The notes under the pieces: generated by a model
Told to the model about the DNA's origin: nothing
The model's database searches: none
Seen by the model: the letters and a program-made list of their open reading frames with translations, nothing else
Origin: an uncultured Pseudomonadota bacterium
GTDB lineage: Bacteria; Pseudomonadota; Gammaproteobacteria; Methylococcales; Methylomonadaceae
DNA length: 64,000 nt
Assembly (NCBI GenBank): GCA_903870545.1
Contig: CAIQDI010000031.1
Span: forward strand, 1 to 64,000
Direction: 5' to 3'
Shown: positions 1 to 28,774 of the stretch, one piece after another
Position numbering within the stretch: the stretch's first letter is position 1
Layout of the letters: each line of letters begins with the position of its first letter
Position numbers and translations under genes: made by a program

Positions 1-2025
1 CGCAATCGTTTGTTGAATTAAATCCGCTAACGGACACGATTCAATCACAAAATCCGCGCCGGCGCGTTCTTCAATTCGGCTTAAATCCAATAATTCGTTA
101 ATCATGGTAATGAGCCAGGTTGATTGCTGATAAATCATGCCAATAATGTCAGGCTGCATGTCGGCTGGAATCATGCCGCTATTCAATAATTCCGAATAAC
201 CGTGAATCGTCGCCAATGGCGTGCGTAATTCATGGGTCGCGTTGGTGAGAAAATCCGATTTAATGCGGTTTGATTCTTCTTCTTTGGTGATGTCGTGCAA
301 GAAATACAATTTGCCCAGCAAATCGCCATTCGGTAAATAAATTTCACGCAAACCACACAACAAATTCACGCGGCGGGGTTTAATTAAATCGATGCGCTGT
401 AACTTGTCCGTGCTTTCTATTGGTGTAAGCGGTTTTTTCGTTTGACTGGATAAATGCGCCCAGAATTTTTCTTCTGGCATCGCCAACAATTCAGGCATCG
501 ACAATCCCGTCATGACATTGATAATGTTATTCGCCAACAAAATTTCGCGCTGCGTATTCACTAATAAATAACCGCTTGGACTGACATCAAACACAATTTG
601 TAATTGTTCGGTACGCTTATTCAACTCAGCGGAGGCAATTTCCCGCGCTCGATTTGCGGATTCCAGTTGTGTTCCCATGTCTAAAATACCGGACGCAGTG
701 GAGTGTAATTCTTGCACAAAAAAATCGTGCTGCGAACTGACACGTCGTCCCGCTGCAATGTCTGCAACAATATTGCTCATCTCTTTTAGTGGTTCTGCCA
801 AGGTCACGCTCATTTTTTTTGATTGCCGATAAAGCATGGTAAAAAAGATGCTGTAAAACACCAACATTCCGGAAATCATCAGCTCGGCAATGGTATTTAA
901 ACGCGCCGATAACGCTACACTGGGTTTGAAAATGGTGTTGGTTGGCACGACAATTAACAATTCCCAACTAGTTGACGGCACGGTTGCCCACGCTAAAATC
1001 ACTTTTTTACTCAGCATAGTATATTGCACGCCGTTGGTGGCTTGTTTGAGTATCGCGGCAATTTCTGGTTTTTTGTTGTACAGGTTGTAATCTTCGCTGC
1101 GAAACGTATCTTCGATTATTGGAACAGAATTATTCGAAGCGGTCATGTTATGAACATTCCAATCGTTCTCACCCAGCGTCGGCAACGCCAAAATGGTACC
1201 ATTTTTATCAATTAAAACACCGTAACCGTTCCACGGAATTTGTAAGGCTTTGACCTCATCGATAATAGTTTTAATCGTAATATCGACACCAATTACGCCT
1301 TCTAAAAAATCGCCGCTATAAACGGGCGCACTACACGATGTCATCCAACCTTGCCCAGCGGGATCGATATAAGCATCCGTCCACACCGTACCACGACTTG
1401 GATTATGCTTTTCATCCGCCTCATAATAAAAATTGTAAGACGGAATGTCTGTTTTCGCGGAATATTGTGAAATCACGTCAAAATACGGATAAATACGATT
1501 TAACGAGTCATAGGTGTTGATATAGGATTGGGCGATGAGCGGAAAGGATTGTTTAACCGCTTTTAGCGCAGGATCCAAGGCAGCACTTGTTAAGGCTTTT
1601 TCTTTTTGTGCCTTACCAATTGGCACAAATCCGCTGTAAAAAACAGCACTCCCGCCGGTGTCTTTCATCGTGTAATACACGCCTTCTTTGCTCATGGCAA
1701 AACGCGCCGGATTATCGCGCAACAATAAATTTTTGCCCGACATGACTTCCGTGGAATAGGCTTGTAAATACATGGTCGCGTGAACAATTGCGTCGAGTTG
1801 ATTGTCAATACCGCTGGCTTCGCGTTTGGCTAAATGTGAGAGTTCTTGTTCAGCCACTTTCACAATTGTTTTGATATTTTCCTTATTAGCAAACTGATTG
1901 CTCAAAAAATAAGTGCCAATTAGTGCGATTTCAACCACCAATAATGGCACAAAAGATGTTTTAAAATAGGAACGCCAAATCCATTGAAACAGCGTAATTT
2001 CAGATGTATTAAGTATTTGTGTCAT
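1..2025 (-). CDS. Sensor histidine kinase, dCache-PAS-HisKA, 3' end outside window
   Basis: Membrane sensor kinase truncated by the left edge; 675 codons are visible with no stop. Seen: an N-terminal membrane segment (about residues 15-42), a long periplasmic part that reads as a double-Cache ligand sensor, a second membrane segment ending in FYSIFFTML (about 295-320), a linker of HAMP type, a PAS domain, then a HisKA box with SDFLTNATHELRTPLA; the phosphoacceptor is His598. The HATPase domain must lie beyond the edge. The ATG at 2025 is the first codon before the hydrophobic segment. It is divergent from the kinase at 2097, with 71 bp between them that must hold both promoters. dCache sensors bind small extracellular ligands such as amino or organic acids; the ligand here is unknown. 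Confidence 0.85.
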   Translation of the reverse strand, partial: MTQILNTSEITLFQWIWRSYFKTSFVPLLVVEIALIGTYFLSNQFANKENIKTIVKVAEQELSHLAKREASGIDNQLDAIVHATMYLQAYSTEVMSGKNLLLRDNPARFAMSKEGVYYTMKDTGGSAVFYSGFVPIGKAQKEKALTSAALDPALKAVKQSFPLIAQSYINTYDSLNRIYPYFDVISQYSAKTDIPSYNFYYEADEKHNPSRGTVWTDAYIDPAGQGWMTSCSAPVYSGDFLEGVIGVDITIKTIIDEVKALQIPWNGYGVLIDKNGTILALPTLGENDWNVHNMTASNNSVPIIEDTFRSEDYNLYNKKPEIAAILKQATNGVQYTMLSKKVILAWATVPSTSWELLIVVPTNTIFKPSVALSARLNTIAELMISGMLVFYSIFFTMLYRQSKKMSVTLAEPLKEMSNIVADIAAGRRVSSQHDFFVQELHSTASGILDMGTQLESANRAREIASAELNKRTEQLQIVFDVSPSGYLLVNTQREILLANNIINVMTGLSMPELLAMPEEKFWAHLSSQTKKPLTPIESTDKLQRIDLIKPRRVNLLCGLREIYLPNGDLLGKLYFLHDITKEEESNRIKSDFLTNATHELRTPLATIHGYSELLNSGMIPADMQPDIIGMIYQQSTWLITMINELLDLSRIEERAGADFVIESCPLADLIQQTIA

Positions 2026-2096
2026 GTGTGAAACTGCATATAAAAAGATTTCCTGCTAGAATAATAACATTCAAATTCTAAAAGCCAAATTTCAAA

Positions 2097-4067
2097 ATGT
2101 CCGACTTGATACCAACTGACAACGACAACTTATTGCTAGAAAATATTCGTTTAAGCAAAGCGTTAGCGGAAGCTGAATTAAATTTTAGTCGGCTCATAGC
2201 CCAATTGAGTGAAGTTGTACTCACAATGAAAGATGGATTTTTTACCTTTCTCAATCCGGCATGGGAAACCATAACGGGCGTTTCCGTCGAACAAAGTTTG
2301 AACACCTCTATGCAAAATTACATTCATTTTGATGATGTGAATAATGTGTGGGAACAACTTTCAACGGCTGATATTTTCCCCGCTGAACGACAAATTGAAT
2401 TTAGAATTATCCATAAAAATAGACAAGTTAGATGGGTGGCATTGACTGCACAACTTAACCAAACTCAAAACGCGAGCATAGAAATTACCGGTACTTTGCG
2501 CGACATTACAGATCATATCGTCACACAACAAGCCTTAACCGCAAGTGAAGAACGTTATGAATTAGTAGCGAGTTCGTTTAATGACGGCATTTGGGATTGG
2601 AATTTATCGAATAACGACGTTTATTTATCCCCACGCTGGAAAGAAATGCTCGGTTACAGTCCCGCCGAATTGCCCAATGCGTTAACGACTTGGACAGATT
2701 TAGTTCACCCCGATGATTTAGAAAGTGCGTTAGAATCGGTGGAAAATTTTTTAAACGGTCACGACACGTTTTACGAAAATATTCATCGGCTAAAACACAA
2801 ACAGGGCGATTGGGTTTGGATATTGGATCGCGGCATTGCAGTTCGTGACAAATCCGGCAAAGCATCACGCATTTATGGCGCACACACCGATGTTACTTCG
2901 CTTCGTAATGTCGAAGAAACTCTGCTCCAGCGGGAACGTGAACTGAACGATATTGTTACAATTAGTCCGGATGGCATTGTCACCTTTACGCCCGAAAAGA
3001 TGGTCAGCTCGGTGAATCCCGCGTTTTTAAGTATGACCGGTTTTAACTGTGACGATTTGTTGTTCATTAGTAAAAACGAATTTGATCAAAAGATGATGAC
3101 TCTGTGTGACGCTGAAAAGCCTTATAAAATCGATATAGAAAATACGGCTCCATTATTGATTCAAATTTCAAAAACAAAAGAAGAGAATTTACCCGCCCAA
3201 GCTAAAACGTCGCAAAATTCTAAATTTAATTTTAGTCACCATCAACCTCGTCATCGTATCTTGCGATTAACACAGTATTATTTGAATAATGCCACGACAG
3301 CCATCATTCTGTATTTTCGAGATGTGACGTTGGAAATTGAAATGGATCGCATGAAAAGTGAGTTTCTATCGGTGGCGGCACACGAATTACGAACGCCCAT
3401 TTCAAGTATTTATGGCTACAGCGAATTACTGATAAATCGTGAATTTGATGACGTAGCTAAACGGGGTATTTTGCAGGCGATTTACGATCAATGCAGCAGT
3501 CTAGTTGTGCTGATTAACGATTTACTGGATTTGGCGAGACTTGAAACTCGTAGTCAGCCCTTTTTTCACTTTGAATTACAGCCATTAACTGCCATTATTG
3601 AAGAAGCGATTAGCAGTTTTAAAATGCACGAAGAGATTCACAAAATCGAGGCACACTATTTTGTTGATGAATCGTCATTGATTTACGCAGATAAAGATCA
3701 AATTAAACGGGCGGTGCTGAACGTATTGAATAATGCGTTTAAGTATTCGCTAAATAGTCAAAACATTATAGTAAACGTTCAACTACGCACGAGTGAGTTG
3801 AGTGAAAAACAAATCGGTGTGACTATTGAAGATAAGGGAATTGGGATGAATCCGGATCAAGTGAGCCGTATTTTTGACCGATTTTGGCGTGCGGATAACG
3901 TTAGTGACATTGTCGGTACAGGATTAGGAATGGCGTTAGTAAAAGAAATTATTGATTTTCATCACGGTGAAATCGAGGTGGAAAGTGTTTTTGGACAAGG
4001 TACGAAAATTGGTTTGTGGTTACCACTGAATAACTCGCAATCGATTGAAAATAAAGAATACAAATAA
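2097..4067 (+). CDS. Cytoplasmic three-PAS sensor histidine kinase
   Basis: 656 aa without a membrane segment, so probably a soluble sensor. Three PAS domains can be placed at about residues 30-140, 150-272 (PAS_3 type, with WDWNLSNNDVYLSPRWKEML) and 285-412. HisKA follows with SEFLSVAAHELRTPISS, phosphoacceptor His429. The HATPase domain has its N box (NVLNNAFKYS), a G1 box (DKGIGM) and a G2 box (GTGLGMALVKEI). The C-terminus is short and has no receiver domain. The REC-only gene starts 9 nt downstream and is the natural phosphorylation partner. Signal unknown; no PAS cofactor residue can be assigned from sequence alone. Confidence 0.9.
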   Translation: MSDLIPTDNDNLLLENIRLSKALAEAELNFSRLIAQLSEVVLTMKDGFFTFLNPAWETITGVSVEQSLNTSMQNYIHFDDVNNVWEQLSTADIFPAERQIEFRIIHKNRQVRWVALTAQLNQTQNASIEITGTLRDITDHIVTQQALTASEERYELVASSFNDGIWDWNLSNNDVYLSPRWKEMLGYSPAELPNALTTWTDLVHPDDLESALESVENFLNGHDTFYENIHRLKHKQGDWVWILDRGIAVRDKSGKASRIYGAHTDVTSLRNVEETLLQRERELNDIVTISPDGIVTFTPEKMVSSVNPAFLSMTGFNCDDLLFISKNEFDQKMMTLCDAEKPYKIDIENTAPLLIQISKTKEENLPAQAKTSQNSKFNFSHHQPRHRILRLTQYYLNNATTAIILYFRDVTLEIEMDRMKSEFLSVAAHELRTPISSIYGYSELLINREFDDVAKRGILQAIYDQCSSLVVLINDLLDLARLETRSQPFFHFELQPLTAIIEEAISSFKMHEEIHKIEAHYFVDESSLIYADKDQIKRAVLNVLNNAFKYSLNSQNIIVNVQLRTSELSEKQIGVTIEDKGIGMNPDQVSRIFDRFWRADNVSDIVGTGLGMALVKEIIDFHHGEIEVESVFGQGTKIGLWLPLNNSQSIENKEYK

Positions 4068-23625: not shown

Positions 23626-24426
23626 TTAGCCACGAACTAATCGAACTTTGTAACGGAATCCTTTGTCTTTAAAATCACTGCCTTTTATTTTAAAGTCGAT
23701 TACTTTTGCCGCCCATGTATTGAAGTCATAAAGCGTGGATGACCAAAAGTATTCACTATTATCAAAAAAAACATTCACAGCGAAAGTATTTGAAACAATG
23801 TTCAATTCGTTAATAGTTGGGACGCGCCAATCGTTGTGATTTCCGTAACTGAAAGTTGTTGGAATTTCCATTGCATCATTCCAATTAACTTTTTCAGCAA
23901 TTCCTTCAATAGCTCCATTTTCCCATCGTTGACCATAAGCAAATCGCAACCACATCAAACCCGTTTCGGTGTCAGTTGCAACGCCATCTTGAACAATGAA
24001 CTTGCCAATTTTATTCGACGAAATAACGGGCGCAGGTTTTGGCGGAATGATAATTTTCGGTTCGGGTTTTAGAATTGGCGCGGGTTCGGGCGTGATAATT
24101 TTTTGCGCTAACGGCGATTGAATCACGTCCAACGCTAACGCCCACGATTCCACCGCCCAAAATGCAAACTCTTTTTGCGTGCCAAAATTATTGTGTAACC
24201 GTTGCGCCAAAATATCCAAATGTATCGACAACGGCGTGTGCGTTTTTTGCATTAAAGCCGCGACAATGTGGTTGTCTAAAGCCAACATCAACAAATTGGT
24301 TTCACGGGTATTTTTTGGCGCGAGGTCTTTTAACATTCCTCGACAACGACGCGGATTTTCAATAATCGAACGCCCGTATTTTTCGAGCATAAACCGTAAT
24401 TGTTGGCGCGGATGTTCGTCTAACAT
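23626..24426 (-). CDS. DUF1566 protein with helical N-terminal domain, paralogue 1
   Basis: 266 aa. The N-terminal domain (1-115) is helical with YGRSIIENPRRCRGMLKDLA; a Pro-rich linker (PEPAPILKPEPKIIIPPKPAP) follows, then a DUF1566 C-type-lectin-like domain from GKFIVQDGVATDTETGLMW to the end. The sister gene at 27953-28774 has the same architecture. It is the last gene of the TerY-P run, 1 codon after DUF2442, with a strong GGAGG ribosome site. Its C-terminal tail is rich in Lys/Asp with AAA and ATA codons and does not show the NNY pattern of the sister. Probably the ligand- or partner-binding component of the module; exact role unknown. Confidence 0.75.
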   Translation of the reverse strand: MLDEHPRQQLRFMLEKYGRSIIENPRRCRGMLKDLAPKNTRETNLLMLALDNHIVAALMQKTHTPLSIHLDILAQRLHNNFGTQKEFAFWAVESWALALDVIQSPLAQKIITPEPAPILKPEPKIIIPPKPAPVISSNKIGKFIVQDGVATDTETGLMWLRFAYGQRWENGAIEGIAEKVNWNDAMEIPTTFSYGNHNDWRVPTINELNIVSNTFAVNVFFDNSEYFWSSTLYDFNTWAAKVIDFKIKGSDFKDKGFRYKVRLVRG

Positions 24427-24914: not shown

Positions 24915-25706
24915 CTATTTCGCATAAATCACCGCCAAACTAATATCGTCGCCGCTGCCACTTTGCGAGGCTTCATTTAACCAATCGGCTAATTCTGCTT
25001 TCACAAAATTCGCGCCGTCGGTTTCAATAAAACCGTGAATATCGCCCAACGCTTGATAAAAACCTTCGGCGTGTTTGAACGAATTTTTATAACCGTCGCT
25101 GACTAAAAAAATCGCTTTCGGCGGTTCGATAATCGGTAAAAAGGCTTCTCGAAAATCTTGCCACGGGTGTTTGCCGCATAACGACGTGGTGTCGTTTCCC
25201 AACAAACGCTCATCGTGTGGAATCGGCATGGCAGGCGTGCCGTCGGCTTGAATGACCACAATATCACCGTCGCCAATTTGCCAATACAACACGCAATTTT
25301 CTAACACGCACGCGACTAAAAGCGTCGTGCCGAACAGCAAATAACGGTTTCCAGTCGCGGCTTCGGTTCGTAAACAATCTTCAATTCGCAAATAATCGTT
25401 AATGTACGCATCGACTTTTCGTTGCCAACAACGGTGAATCGCTTTCGGAATGCCTTCGGATAACGTTCGCAATTGTGGCAACGACAAATTCGGTGCATTG
25501 AAAACTTGCTGCACAATTTCAATCGCGGCTTCCACCGCAAACTTTGCGCCCAAATCGCTGCGCGTACAACGTGCGCTGCCGTGACCATCTGCGACCGCGA
25601 CCACCAACGGATGTTGTGCGCTGGCGACGGCATCTTGATTCGGCAAACCGTTTCGGTGATGGCTTGCGCCGCGCACACTTTCAGTTAAAACGCGCCATGT
25701 CACCAT
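24915..25706 (-). CDS. PP2C-type Ser/Thr phosphatase of a TerY-P module
   Basis: 263 aa. PP2C metal-binding marks are visible: VAVADGHGSARCTRSDLGA (Asp40, Gly41), FLVSDGYKNSF and the C-terminal SGSGDDISLAVIY. It dephosphorylates phospho-Ser/Thr proteins, probably targets of the kinase at 26583-27905. Its ATG lies inside the last codons of the vWA gene (overlap 7 nt), so the two are translationally coupled. Kinase + vWA + PP2C in this order is the TerY-P triad described in comparative genomics of tellurium-resistance-like stress systems. Confidence 0.9.
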   Translation of the reverse strand: MVTWRVLTESVRGASHHRNGLPNQDAVASAQHPLVVAVADGHGSARCTRSDLGAKFAVEAAIEIVQQVFNAPNLSLPQLRTLSEGIPKAIHRCWQRKVDAYINDYLRIEDCLRTEAATGNRYLLFGTTLLVACVLENCVLYWQIGDGDIVVIQADGTPAMPIPHDERLLGNDTTSLCGKHPWQDFREAFLPIIEPPKAIFLVSDGYKNSFKHAEGFYQALGDIHGFIETDGANFVKAELADWLNEASQSGSGDDISLAVIYAK

Positions 25707-26404
25707 ACGTCCGCCGCTGAATTCGGATCGACGGTTGGAACGGGCGGAATTGGCACATTGTTATCGCTGATGCTGTCTGTCACTTGGCTCGGTGGCGCAG
25801 AAGCCGCTTGTAAAACTGCCGTCGAAACCCAACGAATATAATTCACCAACTGTTCCGCGTTGTGCGCGTGCAACGGTTGCAATTCTTTGTTGCCGATAAA
25901 TTGCTGCAACACTTCCATATCGGCATCTTCACCAATCGCAATGCCAATCCGCACCGCTTTTTTTCCCCACGGCAACGCCATCAATTCTTTCAAACCACTT
26001 TCAAAATCGTCGGTCGGTTGACCGTCCGAAATCAACACCAACACAGGCGGCAAACCACGTTCCGTCATCGGTGGCATTTTCAATTGGTCTGCGACTAAAC
26101 GAAACGCCGCGCCCATATCGGTCATGCCATCAACCTGTAAATCTTGCCATTTGAAATCCTCAACGGGCGTGGCGTTAGCAACGTGCCATTTTGCGCCGTT
26201 TGAAAATTTAACCGCTCGCACCAACACTTCGGCATTCACATTGTCAGCGGCGACGTTTTGCATCGCGGGAATCGCTTCACGAATCGCGTGATTTAAACCT
26301 TGAATTTTGTTGCCTTCCATCGAATACGAACAATCTGCAATCCAAATAAAATGCAGTGGACGTGTCGCTAATTCTCCACCTGGACGTTTTTTTAAAGCTA
26401 CCAT
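25700..26404 (-). CDS. TerY-like von Willebrand factor A protein
   Basis: 234 aa. A full MIDAS is present: DCSYSM (Asp24, Ser26, Ser28), Thr in DGMTDMGAAF, and Asp in LISDGQPTDDFES. The C-terminus (about 195-234) is Pro/Ser-rich and probably disordered. TerY-like vWA proteins pair with PP2C and a kinase in TerY-P triads and likely serve as metal-dependent scaffolds. The 5' flank to the kinase gene is 178 bp and holds a pair of REP-like hairpins, so the vWA-PP2C-DUF part could have its own promoter. Confidence 0.88.
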   Translation of the reverse strand: MVALKKRPGGELATRPLHFIWIADCSYSMEGNKIQGLNHAIREAIPAMQNVAADNVNAEVLVRAVKFSNGAKWHVANATPVEDFKWQDLQVDGMTDMGAAFRLVADQLKMPPMTERGLPPVLVLISDGQPTDDFESGLKELMALPWGKKAVRIGIAIGEDADMEVLQQFIGNKELQPLHAHNAEQLVNYIRWVSTAVLQAASAPPSQVTDSISDNNVPIPPVPTVDPNSAADVW

Positions 26405-26582: not shown

Positions 26583-27905
26583 TTAAATGCGGATTTCAGC
26601 TTGCGCTTGTCCGAAATTGATGGTGATTCCCGTTGCTAAGGTCACGCTTTTACCTTGTTCGACGGTTTTCAAAACGCCGTTATCGGTAAATGTCCACGCC
26701 TCAGCGGTGAGATTTTTCAAACCCCAAATGTTGGGATTGGTCGGGTGTTGCACCACTTGCGCGACGGCGGGCGTAATATCGTTTTTTCGCGCGGGGTACA
26801 AATGATACGGATACAACTCGGCTTTGTTGTTCAACATCACCGTTAATTCTTGTCCCGTGCTTTGTTTAATGCGAATGCGCGGCGGCAAAACCAACGTTTT
26901 TTGACAACTCCAACACGGTTTTAACTGTCCGTTCGCTTTCAATTCGTCTTCGTCATAAAAATTCTCCGCGCCACACCCGCAATCGACAATCGTATCTTTT
27001 AAACGTAACAACTGCCGCCGCCATTCACTTTCACGGATTCTCGAATGCACGTCCGACAAACCCGCCGTGAACGATTGCGTAAATAAATCGCGGATAAATT
27101 TCGGGTAAATCGCCCAATAAATAAGCGCGTTGTCTTGATAATTTTTAACGGGATAATTGCTTTTATCGTTCGGGTCAAAAATAAACAGCGGCTCAAAACC
27201 GTACAATTTATTCATCGCAGGCAAATCAAAACATTTCATGTCCGCTTCTTTTTTACCTTCCAACGGATGATGCAACATCAACATATAAAACAGCAGCACC
27301 GCCAACGAAAACAAATCACTGTCGCTATTCGGATTATTTTCGCGGCGCACAATTTCAGGCGACATAAAACGCGGCGTTCCGACCACACCCGTATTTTGCG
27401 AACCGTTCACCGTCACATTGTCGTTGTCGCAAATCAAAATATCGCCCGTGTTCGGGTCGATAAAAAAGTTCCCAAACGAAATATCCCGATAACACAGCCC
27501 TTTCGCGTGCAAAAGCTGAAAACTGTCCGCAAGTTGAATCGTCGCAATCAGCAATTGCCGAAAACTCGGCTCAATGCGGCGTTTCATTAAATCTGAAATG
27601 TTTTTGTAATTGCTTTGCCGAATCGACATCGCATAACCAAACCCCGCGTTTTCAGTCGATGACGCTAAATGCAACGGGAATAAAAAGTTGGTATTCGGCG
27701 CACCGACGGCGAGTAATTCTTGAAGCGCGGCGCGTTGTTCCGCCGTGGCTTGTTGCGAGTAGTACCATTTCAACGCCATCGATTGTCCTTCGGATTCGGC
27801 GCGATACACTTCGCCTTGTCCGCCCGAACCTAAAAATTCTTTGACGACACACGTTTTGCCATTGTCGAGTTGAATGGCTTGATTGAGCTTGAGTAATTGG
27901 TTCAT
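26583..27905 (-). CDS. Ser/Thr protein kinase with zinc ribbon, TerY-P module
   Basis: 440 aa. Kinase domain 1-290: glycine loop LGSGGQGEVYR, Lys46 in ALKWY, catalytic loop YRDISFGN (Asp141, Asn146; His of HRD replaced by Tyr), DFG replaced by DND (Asp160), and SPE for APE. A Cys4 zinc ribbon follows (Cys309, 311, 331, 334 in CGCG...CWSC). The last 90 residues are beta-rich with NPNIWGLKNLT and ITINFGQAQAEI, reminiscent of an FHA-type domain. Kinase plus zinc ribbon with vWA and PP2C neighbours fits the TerY-P triad. Likely phosphorylates module partners; substrate unknown. Confidence 0.88.
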   Translation of the reverse strand: MNQLLKLNQAIQLDNGKTCVVKEFLGSGGQGEVYRAESEGQSMALKWYYSQQATAEQRAALQELLAVGAPNTNFLFPLHLASSTENAGFGYAMSIRQSNYKNISDLMKRRIEPSFRQLLIATIQLADSFQLLHAKGLCYRDISFGNFFIDPNTGDILICDNDNVTVNGSQNTGVVGTPRFMSPEIVRRENNPNSDSDLFSLAVLLFYMLMLHHPLEGKKEADMKCFDLPAMNKLYGFEPLFIFDPNDKSNYPVKNYQDNALIYWAIYPKFIRDLFTQSFTAGLSDVHSRIRESEWRRQLLRLKDTIVDCGCGAENFYDEDELKANGQLKPCWSCQKTLVLPPRIRIKQSTGQELTVMLNNKAELYPYHLYPARKNDITPAVAQVVQHPTNPNIWGLKNLTAEAWTFTDNGVLKTVEQGKSVTLATGITINFGQAQAEIRI

Positions 27906-27952
27906 AAATTTAGTCTGTAAAAGTTAAAAACAAAAGGTAAAAAACACTGTCG

Positions 27953-28774
27953 CTACCTAACCAACCGAACAAAATTGCTAAAGTACTTAAGGCTGACGTA
28001 CGAACCGCCGTCGTAGAAGTAGACACTCCACGCATTGAAACTAAAGTAAGCATCAGGCGAGGAAGACCAAAACCATCTTTCATTTTTAGGAAAAACATCC
28101 GCATCAATGTAATTGCCACTCGTGCCTTTGACTTTATCGATTAACGTTTTTAGCTCGTCAATGTTCGGAACGCGCCAATCTTTATAACCTTCGTAACCTT
28201 GTCGATTGAACTTTTGAGGGATTTTCATTGCATCATTCCAATTTACTTTTTCAGCATTTCCCGCAACAGTTCCATTTTCCCATCGTTGCCCATGAGCAAA
28301 TCGCAACCACATCAAACCCGTTTCGGTGTCAGTGGCAACGCCGTCTTGAACGATGAATTTGCCGATTTGTTGTGGTGATGATGTTGAAACGATTGGCGCA
28401 GGTTTTGGCGGAATAATAATTTTTGGTTCTGGTTCGGGCGTGATAATTTTTTGCGCTGACGGTTGTTGAATTACGTCCAACGCTAACGCCCAAGATTCAA
28501 TCGCCCAAACCGCGAAATCTTTTTGAATGCCGACATTGTTATGTAATCGTTGCGCCAAAATATCCAAGTGCATCAAAATCGGCGTGTGCGTTTTTTGCGT
28601 TAATTCGGCGACGAGTTTTTGGTCTAACGCCAACATGAGCAAATTGGTTTCGCGTTGATGTTTGGGCGCGAGGTCTTTTAACATTCCACGACAACGGCGC
28701 GGGTCGTCAATAATGGAACGCCCGTAATTTTCGATGATAAAACGTAATTGGTGGCGCGGGTGATTGTCTAGCAT
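27953..28774 (-). CDS. DUF1566 protein, paralogue 2, with NNY-rich variable-looking tail
   Basis: 273 aa with the same plan as the gene at 23626-24426: helical N-terminus (YGRSIIDDPRRCRGMLKDLA), Pro-rich linker, DUF1566 domain. The C-terminal 34 codons after FWSSSPDAY are striking: outside AW, K and VRLVR almost every codon ends in C or T (TAC, TTC, GAC, GGC, AGC, GTC, CTT, TTT), each reachable from AAC or AAT by changing A. This is how variable regions of diversity-generating retroelement targets look, and the C-type-lectin-like DUF1566 fold hosts such regions. First gene of the TerY-P run, 47 nt before the kinase. Binding role inferred. Confidence 0.75.
   Translation of the reverse strand: MLDNHPRHQLRFIIENYGRSIIDDPRRCRGMLKDLAPKHQRETNLLMLALDQKLVAELTQKTHTPILMHLDILAQRLHNNVGIQKDFAVWAIESWALALDVIQQPSAQKIITPEPEPKIIIPPKPAPIVSTSSPQQIGKFIVQDGVATDTETGLMWLRFAHGQRWENGTVAGNAEKVNWNDAMKIPQKFNRQGYEGYKDWRVPNIDELKTLIDKVKGTSGNYIDADVFPKNERWFWSSSPDAYFSFNAWSVYFYDGGSYVSLKYFSNFVRLVR

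Follow-up and report, generated by a model that had tools for sequence, protein, structure and literature searches.

The variable tail of an Lcl_C protein in a Methylomonadaceae genome as a probable remote target of a diversity-generating retroelement

The window analysed here, a stretch of 64,000 nucleotides from the genome of an uncultured member of the Methylomonadaceae (G000; 2.68 Mb in 39 contigs, 98.3% complete), carries a gene whose 3′ end is, judging from its sequence, very probably a variable region (VR) of a diversity-generating retroelement (DGR). It is also highly probable that the gene is a remote target, served in trans by a cassette of the kind present in a congener, G014. The VR had been proposed in a preliminary description of the window, and the proposal is upheld by the congener's template, which predicts the variable and the fixed bases, by nine further tails in the same genome and by syntenic genes whose differences are adenine-specific. 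That description had left action in trans and ancestral activity side by side; the data appear to favour the former. The features are listed in Table 1.

Table 1. Positions of the target gene, its neighbours and the cassette of the congener G014
Feature	Location	Position	Strand	Details and basis
Target gene	Window	27953..28774	minus	273 aa; ORF call and Pfam
Variable region (VR)	Window	27957..28072	minus	116 nt, residues F235 to V272; differs from the G014 template mostly at its adenines
Post-VR motif GACAGTGTTTTTTACCTTTTGTTTTT	Window	27926..27951	minus	VR versus template (TR) 3′ ends
Ser/Thr protein kinase, C-terminal Cys-rich stretch	Window	26583..27905	minus	PF00069, E = 1e-22
von Willebrand factor A (VWA) protein	Window	25700..26404	minus	PF00092, E = 3e-6
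PP2C-type phosphatase	Window	24915..25706	minus	PF13672, E = 7e-41
Paralogue 1	Window	23626..24426	minus	N-terminal region and Lcl_C domain as in target, 70% identical
Caspase-PKD-Lcl_C target with VR	G014 contig L080	3869-6223	cassette strand
Avd-like protein	G014 contig L080	3451-3822	cassette strand	PHROG, NF033474
Template	G014 contig L080	3211-3326	cassette strand
Reverse transcriptase (RT)	G014 contig L080	1655-3124	cassette strand	RVT_1; IGNLTSQ and YVDD motifs
Second Lcl_C target with VR	G014 contig L080	1158-1679	cassette strand

The domain at the 3′ end of the target gene is Lcl_C (PF07603, E = 4.5e-28 in a Pfam profile search), formerly DUF1566, the VR host that had been named earlier. 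The protein consists of an N-terminal region (residues 1 to ~105), a proline-rich linker and the Lcl_C domain (residues 146-273). No Pfam family matches the N-terminal region, whose helical character is seen solely in a low-confidence structure model (AlphaFold, mean pLDDT 40). A PDB sequence search with the Lcl_C domain gave no relative below E = 0.1, and the C-type lectin fold ascribed to the domain is taken solely from the literature. The target gene heads an operon-like run of kinase, VWA and PP2C genes, in which the kinase gene comes next after a gap of 47 nt and the start of the phosphatase gene overlaps the end of the VWA gene. As the protein has no obvious signal peptide and its gene heads this run, a cytoplasmic sensor feeding phospho-signalling is plausible. 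The PADLOC matches of the kinase are to defence kinases (best PD-T4-6, E = 4e-21) but reflect general kinase similarity.

The abundance of NNC and NNT codons on which the preliminary description was built is real, with 82% of the 34 tail codons tested ending in C or T. Among 34-codon windows in the large ORFs of the window (mean 52%), 0.3% attain this level, so the codon bias on its own is just moderately unusual and could have arisen by chance; Lcl_C tails, moreover, vary in general. One might then consider a binding surface that evolves fast under ordinary positive selection or has an NNY codon bias, but this is refuted by the template match and must be regarded as very improbable, as the changes fall mainly on template adenines, the VRs of G014 match their template at every non-adenine base, and the non-VR Lcl_C paralogues of G000 have no such framework. 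With regard to extent, the VR proper starts at the FWSSSP codons, and the segment 28073-28110, which had been included in the tail, belongs to the ordinary part of the domain. Variation is already present at residue D241 (GAT from AAT).

A template inferred by eye, with the variable codons set to AAC or AAT, was searched for in 18 genomes of the genus, and the best match (96%) was located outside any target gene on a 6.5-kb contig of G014, a lake MAG. By its sequence this contig carries a complete DGR, with all components on one strand. Its Avd-like protein matches the PHROG family 'Avd protein of DGR' (E = 2e-18) and NF033474 (E = 1e-10, below the NF033474 cutoff), and its RT has 8ub7 as best PDB sequence match (E = 4e-36). 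The mismatches of the two G014 VRs to their own template lie at template adenines (16/16 and 17/17), with none elsewhere. There is also an inverted repeat of ~129 nt (92%) near both ends of this contig (L080 1-127 and 6229-6357), present again on another G014 contig (L128 3207-3333) and possibly representing mobile-element ends.

When compared with the G014 template, the window tail is changed at 24 of 41 adenines and at 6 of 75 other bases (Fisher p = 6e-9), so that 24 of its 30 mismatches are on template adenines; 17 of the 19 AAY template codons are rewritten in the VR. The consensus of the own-genome VRs gives 25/42 adenines against 4/74 other bases (p = 2e-10), a test which is partly circular with that consensus serving as template, unlike those made with the G014 template. 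The non-adenine mismatches at positions 47, 48 and 54 recur in other tails of the genome and therefore look like template differences between the two species. The codon TCG, previously regarded as not fitting the pattern, encodes S258 and is TCA in the G014 template, i.e., an A-to-G change; A, G, T and C all occur among VRs at this template adenine, and several VRs of G000 keep TCA. The adenines of the template codons AAG (K263) and AGT (S245) are kept in 26-27 of 27 VRs although adenines nearby vary, an indication that the proteins are selected for function.

A search of the whole genome with the window tail identified nine more genes with the same tail (contigs C2, C4, C10, C13, C24 [two], C32 [two] and C37) and one degenerate gene (C3). 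Common to all is the tail frame FWSSSPxAxxSxxAWxVxFxxGxSxxxxKxxxxxVRLVR, with almost identical framework codons and with x mostly NNC or NNT; the C2 tail carries a short insertion. Against the G014 template, the nine VRs have changes at 172 of 369 adenines and 46 of 675 other bases (p = 2e-50), and VR changes are similarly concentrated on adenines in the close relatives G010 and G005. The consensus of the VRs, a putative template sequence for the species itself, is TTTTGGTCTTCTTCGCCTAATGCTAACAATAGTAACAATGCGTGGAATGTC... Gene conversion among Lcl_C paralogues, spreading a common 3′ end with no part played by a DGR, would account for a framework shared almost unchanged by loci that are only ~48% identical (ungapped) in the 60 nt upstream. 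However, it does not limit differences to the adenines of a separate, non-coding template of another species, as the comparison of the nine VRs requires; it is refuted as sole cause and is given hardly any credence here.

In total there are 27 Lcl_C matches in G000, and comparison of these genes confirmed that the remainder, including paralogue 1, for which this had already been stated, do not have the VR pattern. Judged by eye, most of the other targets begin with a hydrophobic stretch resembling a signal peptide; several possess PKD domains and one a caspase domain. The VR paralogue of C37 (L081 149-763) has an altered N-terminus and sits on an 8.5-kb contig that may be plasmid or element DNA, with ParA-like, serine-recombinase-like and Fic-like frames (named by eye) on it as well. 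This contig was considered as a site where a cassette had been cut off and was rejected, as the start of a response-regulator-like frame (by eye) lies beyond the VR gene.

The window locus is syntenic with contig C33 of G010, the flanks being up to 95% identical, and the VR gene differs from its counterpart there at 30 of 42 adenine sites and 5 of 74 others; its orthology is less clean than could be wished, with two tandem genes at the G010 locus. Two other syntenic pairs of the two genomes differ at 28/42 adenine and 1/74 non-adenine sites and at 23/42 and 8/74, respectively. Unrelated VRs within a single genome differ to the same degree (mean identity at adenine sites 0.46), so in at least one of the two lineages the adenine positions have been rewritten after the split. 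Within G000, the young paralogues on C4 and C13 are 94% identical over the last 200 nt upstream, and their VRs differ at 22/42 adenines versus 1/74 other bases. A genome with neither RT nor template, and with variable residues as conserved as the framework, had been named in the preliminary description as what would speak against a DGR. RT and template are indeed missing from the assembly, but the residues are not so conserved, since the syntenic genes of the near relative differ at 23-30 of 42 adenine sites and 1-8 of 74 others. The G010 relative of the window target (L177 5116-6231) has, between its N-terminal region and the Lcl_C domain, an apparent transmembrane helix that is missing from the window protein. 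On C33 of G010 (L201, ~1100-1215), a pabB-like frame (by eye) appears to change frame and continue into a 3′ end resembling a VR, with IRLVRS, a stop codon and then the post-VR motif, perhaps the remnant of a lost target gene.

Right after most VRs lies a motif of the general form GACAGTGTTTTT-N-CCTTTTGTTT. In the window its GACAGTG is at 27945-27951 (minus strand), and the G014 template has GAGAGTG at this place. A second cassette, with template, RT and Lcl_C target, was identified in G019, which belongs to another genus of the family (L068 [C100] 341-3597). Over the stretch compared here, template adenines account for 15 of 20 mismatches, and the same switch from GAGAGTG (template) to GACAGTG (VR) occurs, so that GAGAGTG stands in the templates of two genera. 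Between template and RT the G019 cassette has a transposase-like ORF of 177 aa (named by eye). A pattern search of four genomes allowing up to three mismatches gave six matches in G000, all directly after VRs; the window copy, which has one extra base, is not among the six. The motif was not found after the 12 non-VR Lcl_C hits checked, nor after paralogue 1, nor after four VR genes (C3, C10, C32b and C37), the last three of which have VRs with 2-5 non-adenine changes and the first of which is degenerate. Motif strength and framework drift are strongly correlated in the genome (rho -0.80, n = 9) but weakly across the genus (rho -0.37, p = 0.055), so that the link is at most suggestive. No fold better than shuffles was obtained in the four sequences examined for a hairpin. 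GACAGTG is likely a homing (IMH-type) site.

The favoured explanation would thus have the window tail as the VR of a remote DGR target. A single Avd/template/RT cassette of the G014 kind would reverse-transcribe its template RNA, introducing random substitutions at adenines, and the resulting cDNA would replace the 3′ end of Lcl_C genes possessing a matching framework and a GACAGTG-type homing site after the stop codon, approximately ten scattered genes of G000 being such targets. The varied face of the lectin-like domain may bind changing ligands, with signalling potentially running through the kinase operon.

No RT or template had been seen in the window, and a search of the genome for both had been proposed. 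The whole assembly likewise has no RT (PF00078/RVT_1 profile and G014 RT as queries), no template and no convincing Avd (G014 Avd as query); RT and template were found instead in the congener G014. RT, Avd and template were also not found in G010 and G005, both VR-rich, the three assemblies being 95-98% complete. Viral contigs contained neither relatives of the RT nor the exact inferred-template core. The RT on contig C494 of another congener, G007, was considered as belonging to a partner cassette and set aside, as it adjoins an Avd gene and a phage tail-type target and so looks like part of a separate phage DGR. That DGR (L194, 1-9000; 35-2832) has a tail-type target, Avd and a 323-aa RT beside phage-like structural genes.

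In our judgement the cassette is probably still present in the species, be it unassembled, unbinned or extrachromosomal. The short G014 cassette contig with its inverted repeats counts for a cassette that is unassembled or elsewhere, as do contigs C40 and C84 of G010, which end inside VRs, as expected if reads disagree there. The VRs could also be fossils, the DGR having rewritten the genes before the cassette was recently lost here and, in separate events, in G010 and G005; the DGR origin would be the same, and present activity alone sets this reading apart from the favoured explanation. Three VR-rich assemblies with no RT, Avd or template would agree with such loss, and the motif-less VRs and degenerate C3 gene described above are as expected for decaying targets. 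However, four VRs (two on C24, C13 and C32a) have no non-adenine change from their own consensus at scored sites, the G010 orthologues, fully different at adenine sites, imply that homing took place in one or both lineages once they had separated, and three separate losses would be a less parsimonious account than failure to assemble the cassettes. The G014 contig with its repeats and the G010 contig ends also speak against it, and loss is judged a real but lesser prospect. Rather unlikely, though worth setting out, is a mobile or extrachromosomal cassette that comes and goes in the genus, the chromosomes keeping about ten homing-ready targets marked by the T-rich GACAGTG motif, so that a transient RT would re-diversify the whole surface and signalling repertoire at once.

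G000 encodes a methane/ammonia monooxygenase subunit A (PF02461, E = 3e-129), which points to a gammaproteobacterial methanotroph. A limited literature search turned up no paper dealing with DGRs in methanotrophic bacteria, a negative that carries little weight. The present case shows how the target network of a DGR can be made out even where no RT is annotated, whereas RT-first surveys would miss it; by one survey's own account, remote targets escape its method (PMC8144416). A testable candidate homing motif by which VR genes can be picked out is a further outcome, and in methane-oxidising bacteria the diversified lectin-like tails are now connected with caspase, PKD and kinase/VWA/PP2C proteins. 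Should the cassette be extrachromosomal, the view of how DGRs are maintained would change.

Remote or trans targets, DUF1566 targets and templates with multiple targets are already known for DGRs; what is unusual in G000 is the gap between targets and machinery. Among the Pfam domains of DGR targets, DUF1566 is reported to be the commonest, and single templates with many VRs are known, but in these surveys VRs were found together with RT and template (PMC4159848, PMC6642488), neither of which was found in G000. The logic of TR, VR, RT and Avd is that of Bordetella phage BPP-1, where a required cis element lies directly downstream of the VR, in a position corresponding to the post-VR motif. A GC-rich hairpin/cruciform containing a GRNA loop forms the BPP-1 element (PMC3240598), whereas the motif here is T-rich with no stable predicted fold. 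In Thiohalocapsa PB-PSB1, nine DGR loci share one genome and diversification has been proven from metagenomic data, in contrast to the one cassette type described here, seen in a congener and known from assembled sequence alone. Like G000, it has targets distant from an RT and VRs matching the template of another locus at all non-adenine sites, and VWA and kinase domains are among its targets (PMC10907252). In cyanobacteria, the remote (DGR-external) variable proteins are lectin-domain paralogues dispersed over the genome, as in G000, with kinases and caspase-like peptidases among the targets. There, however, a DGR cassette is in the same genome, and the kinase is fused to the target instead of being encoded by a separate neighbouring gene (PMC7517822). 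DGR-diversified lectin domains have been linked to conflict systems with VWA, kinase and caspase domains (PMC7159879, PMC10907252, PMC7517822).
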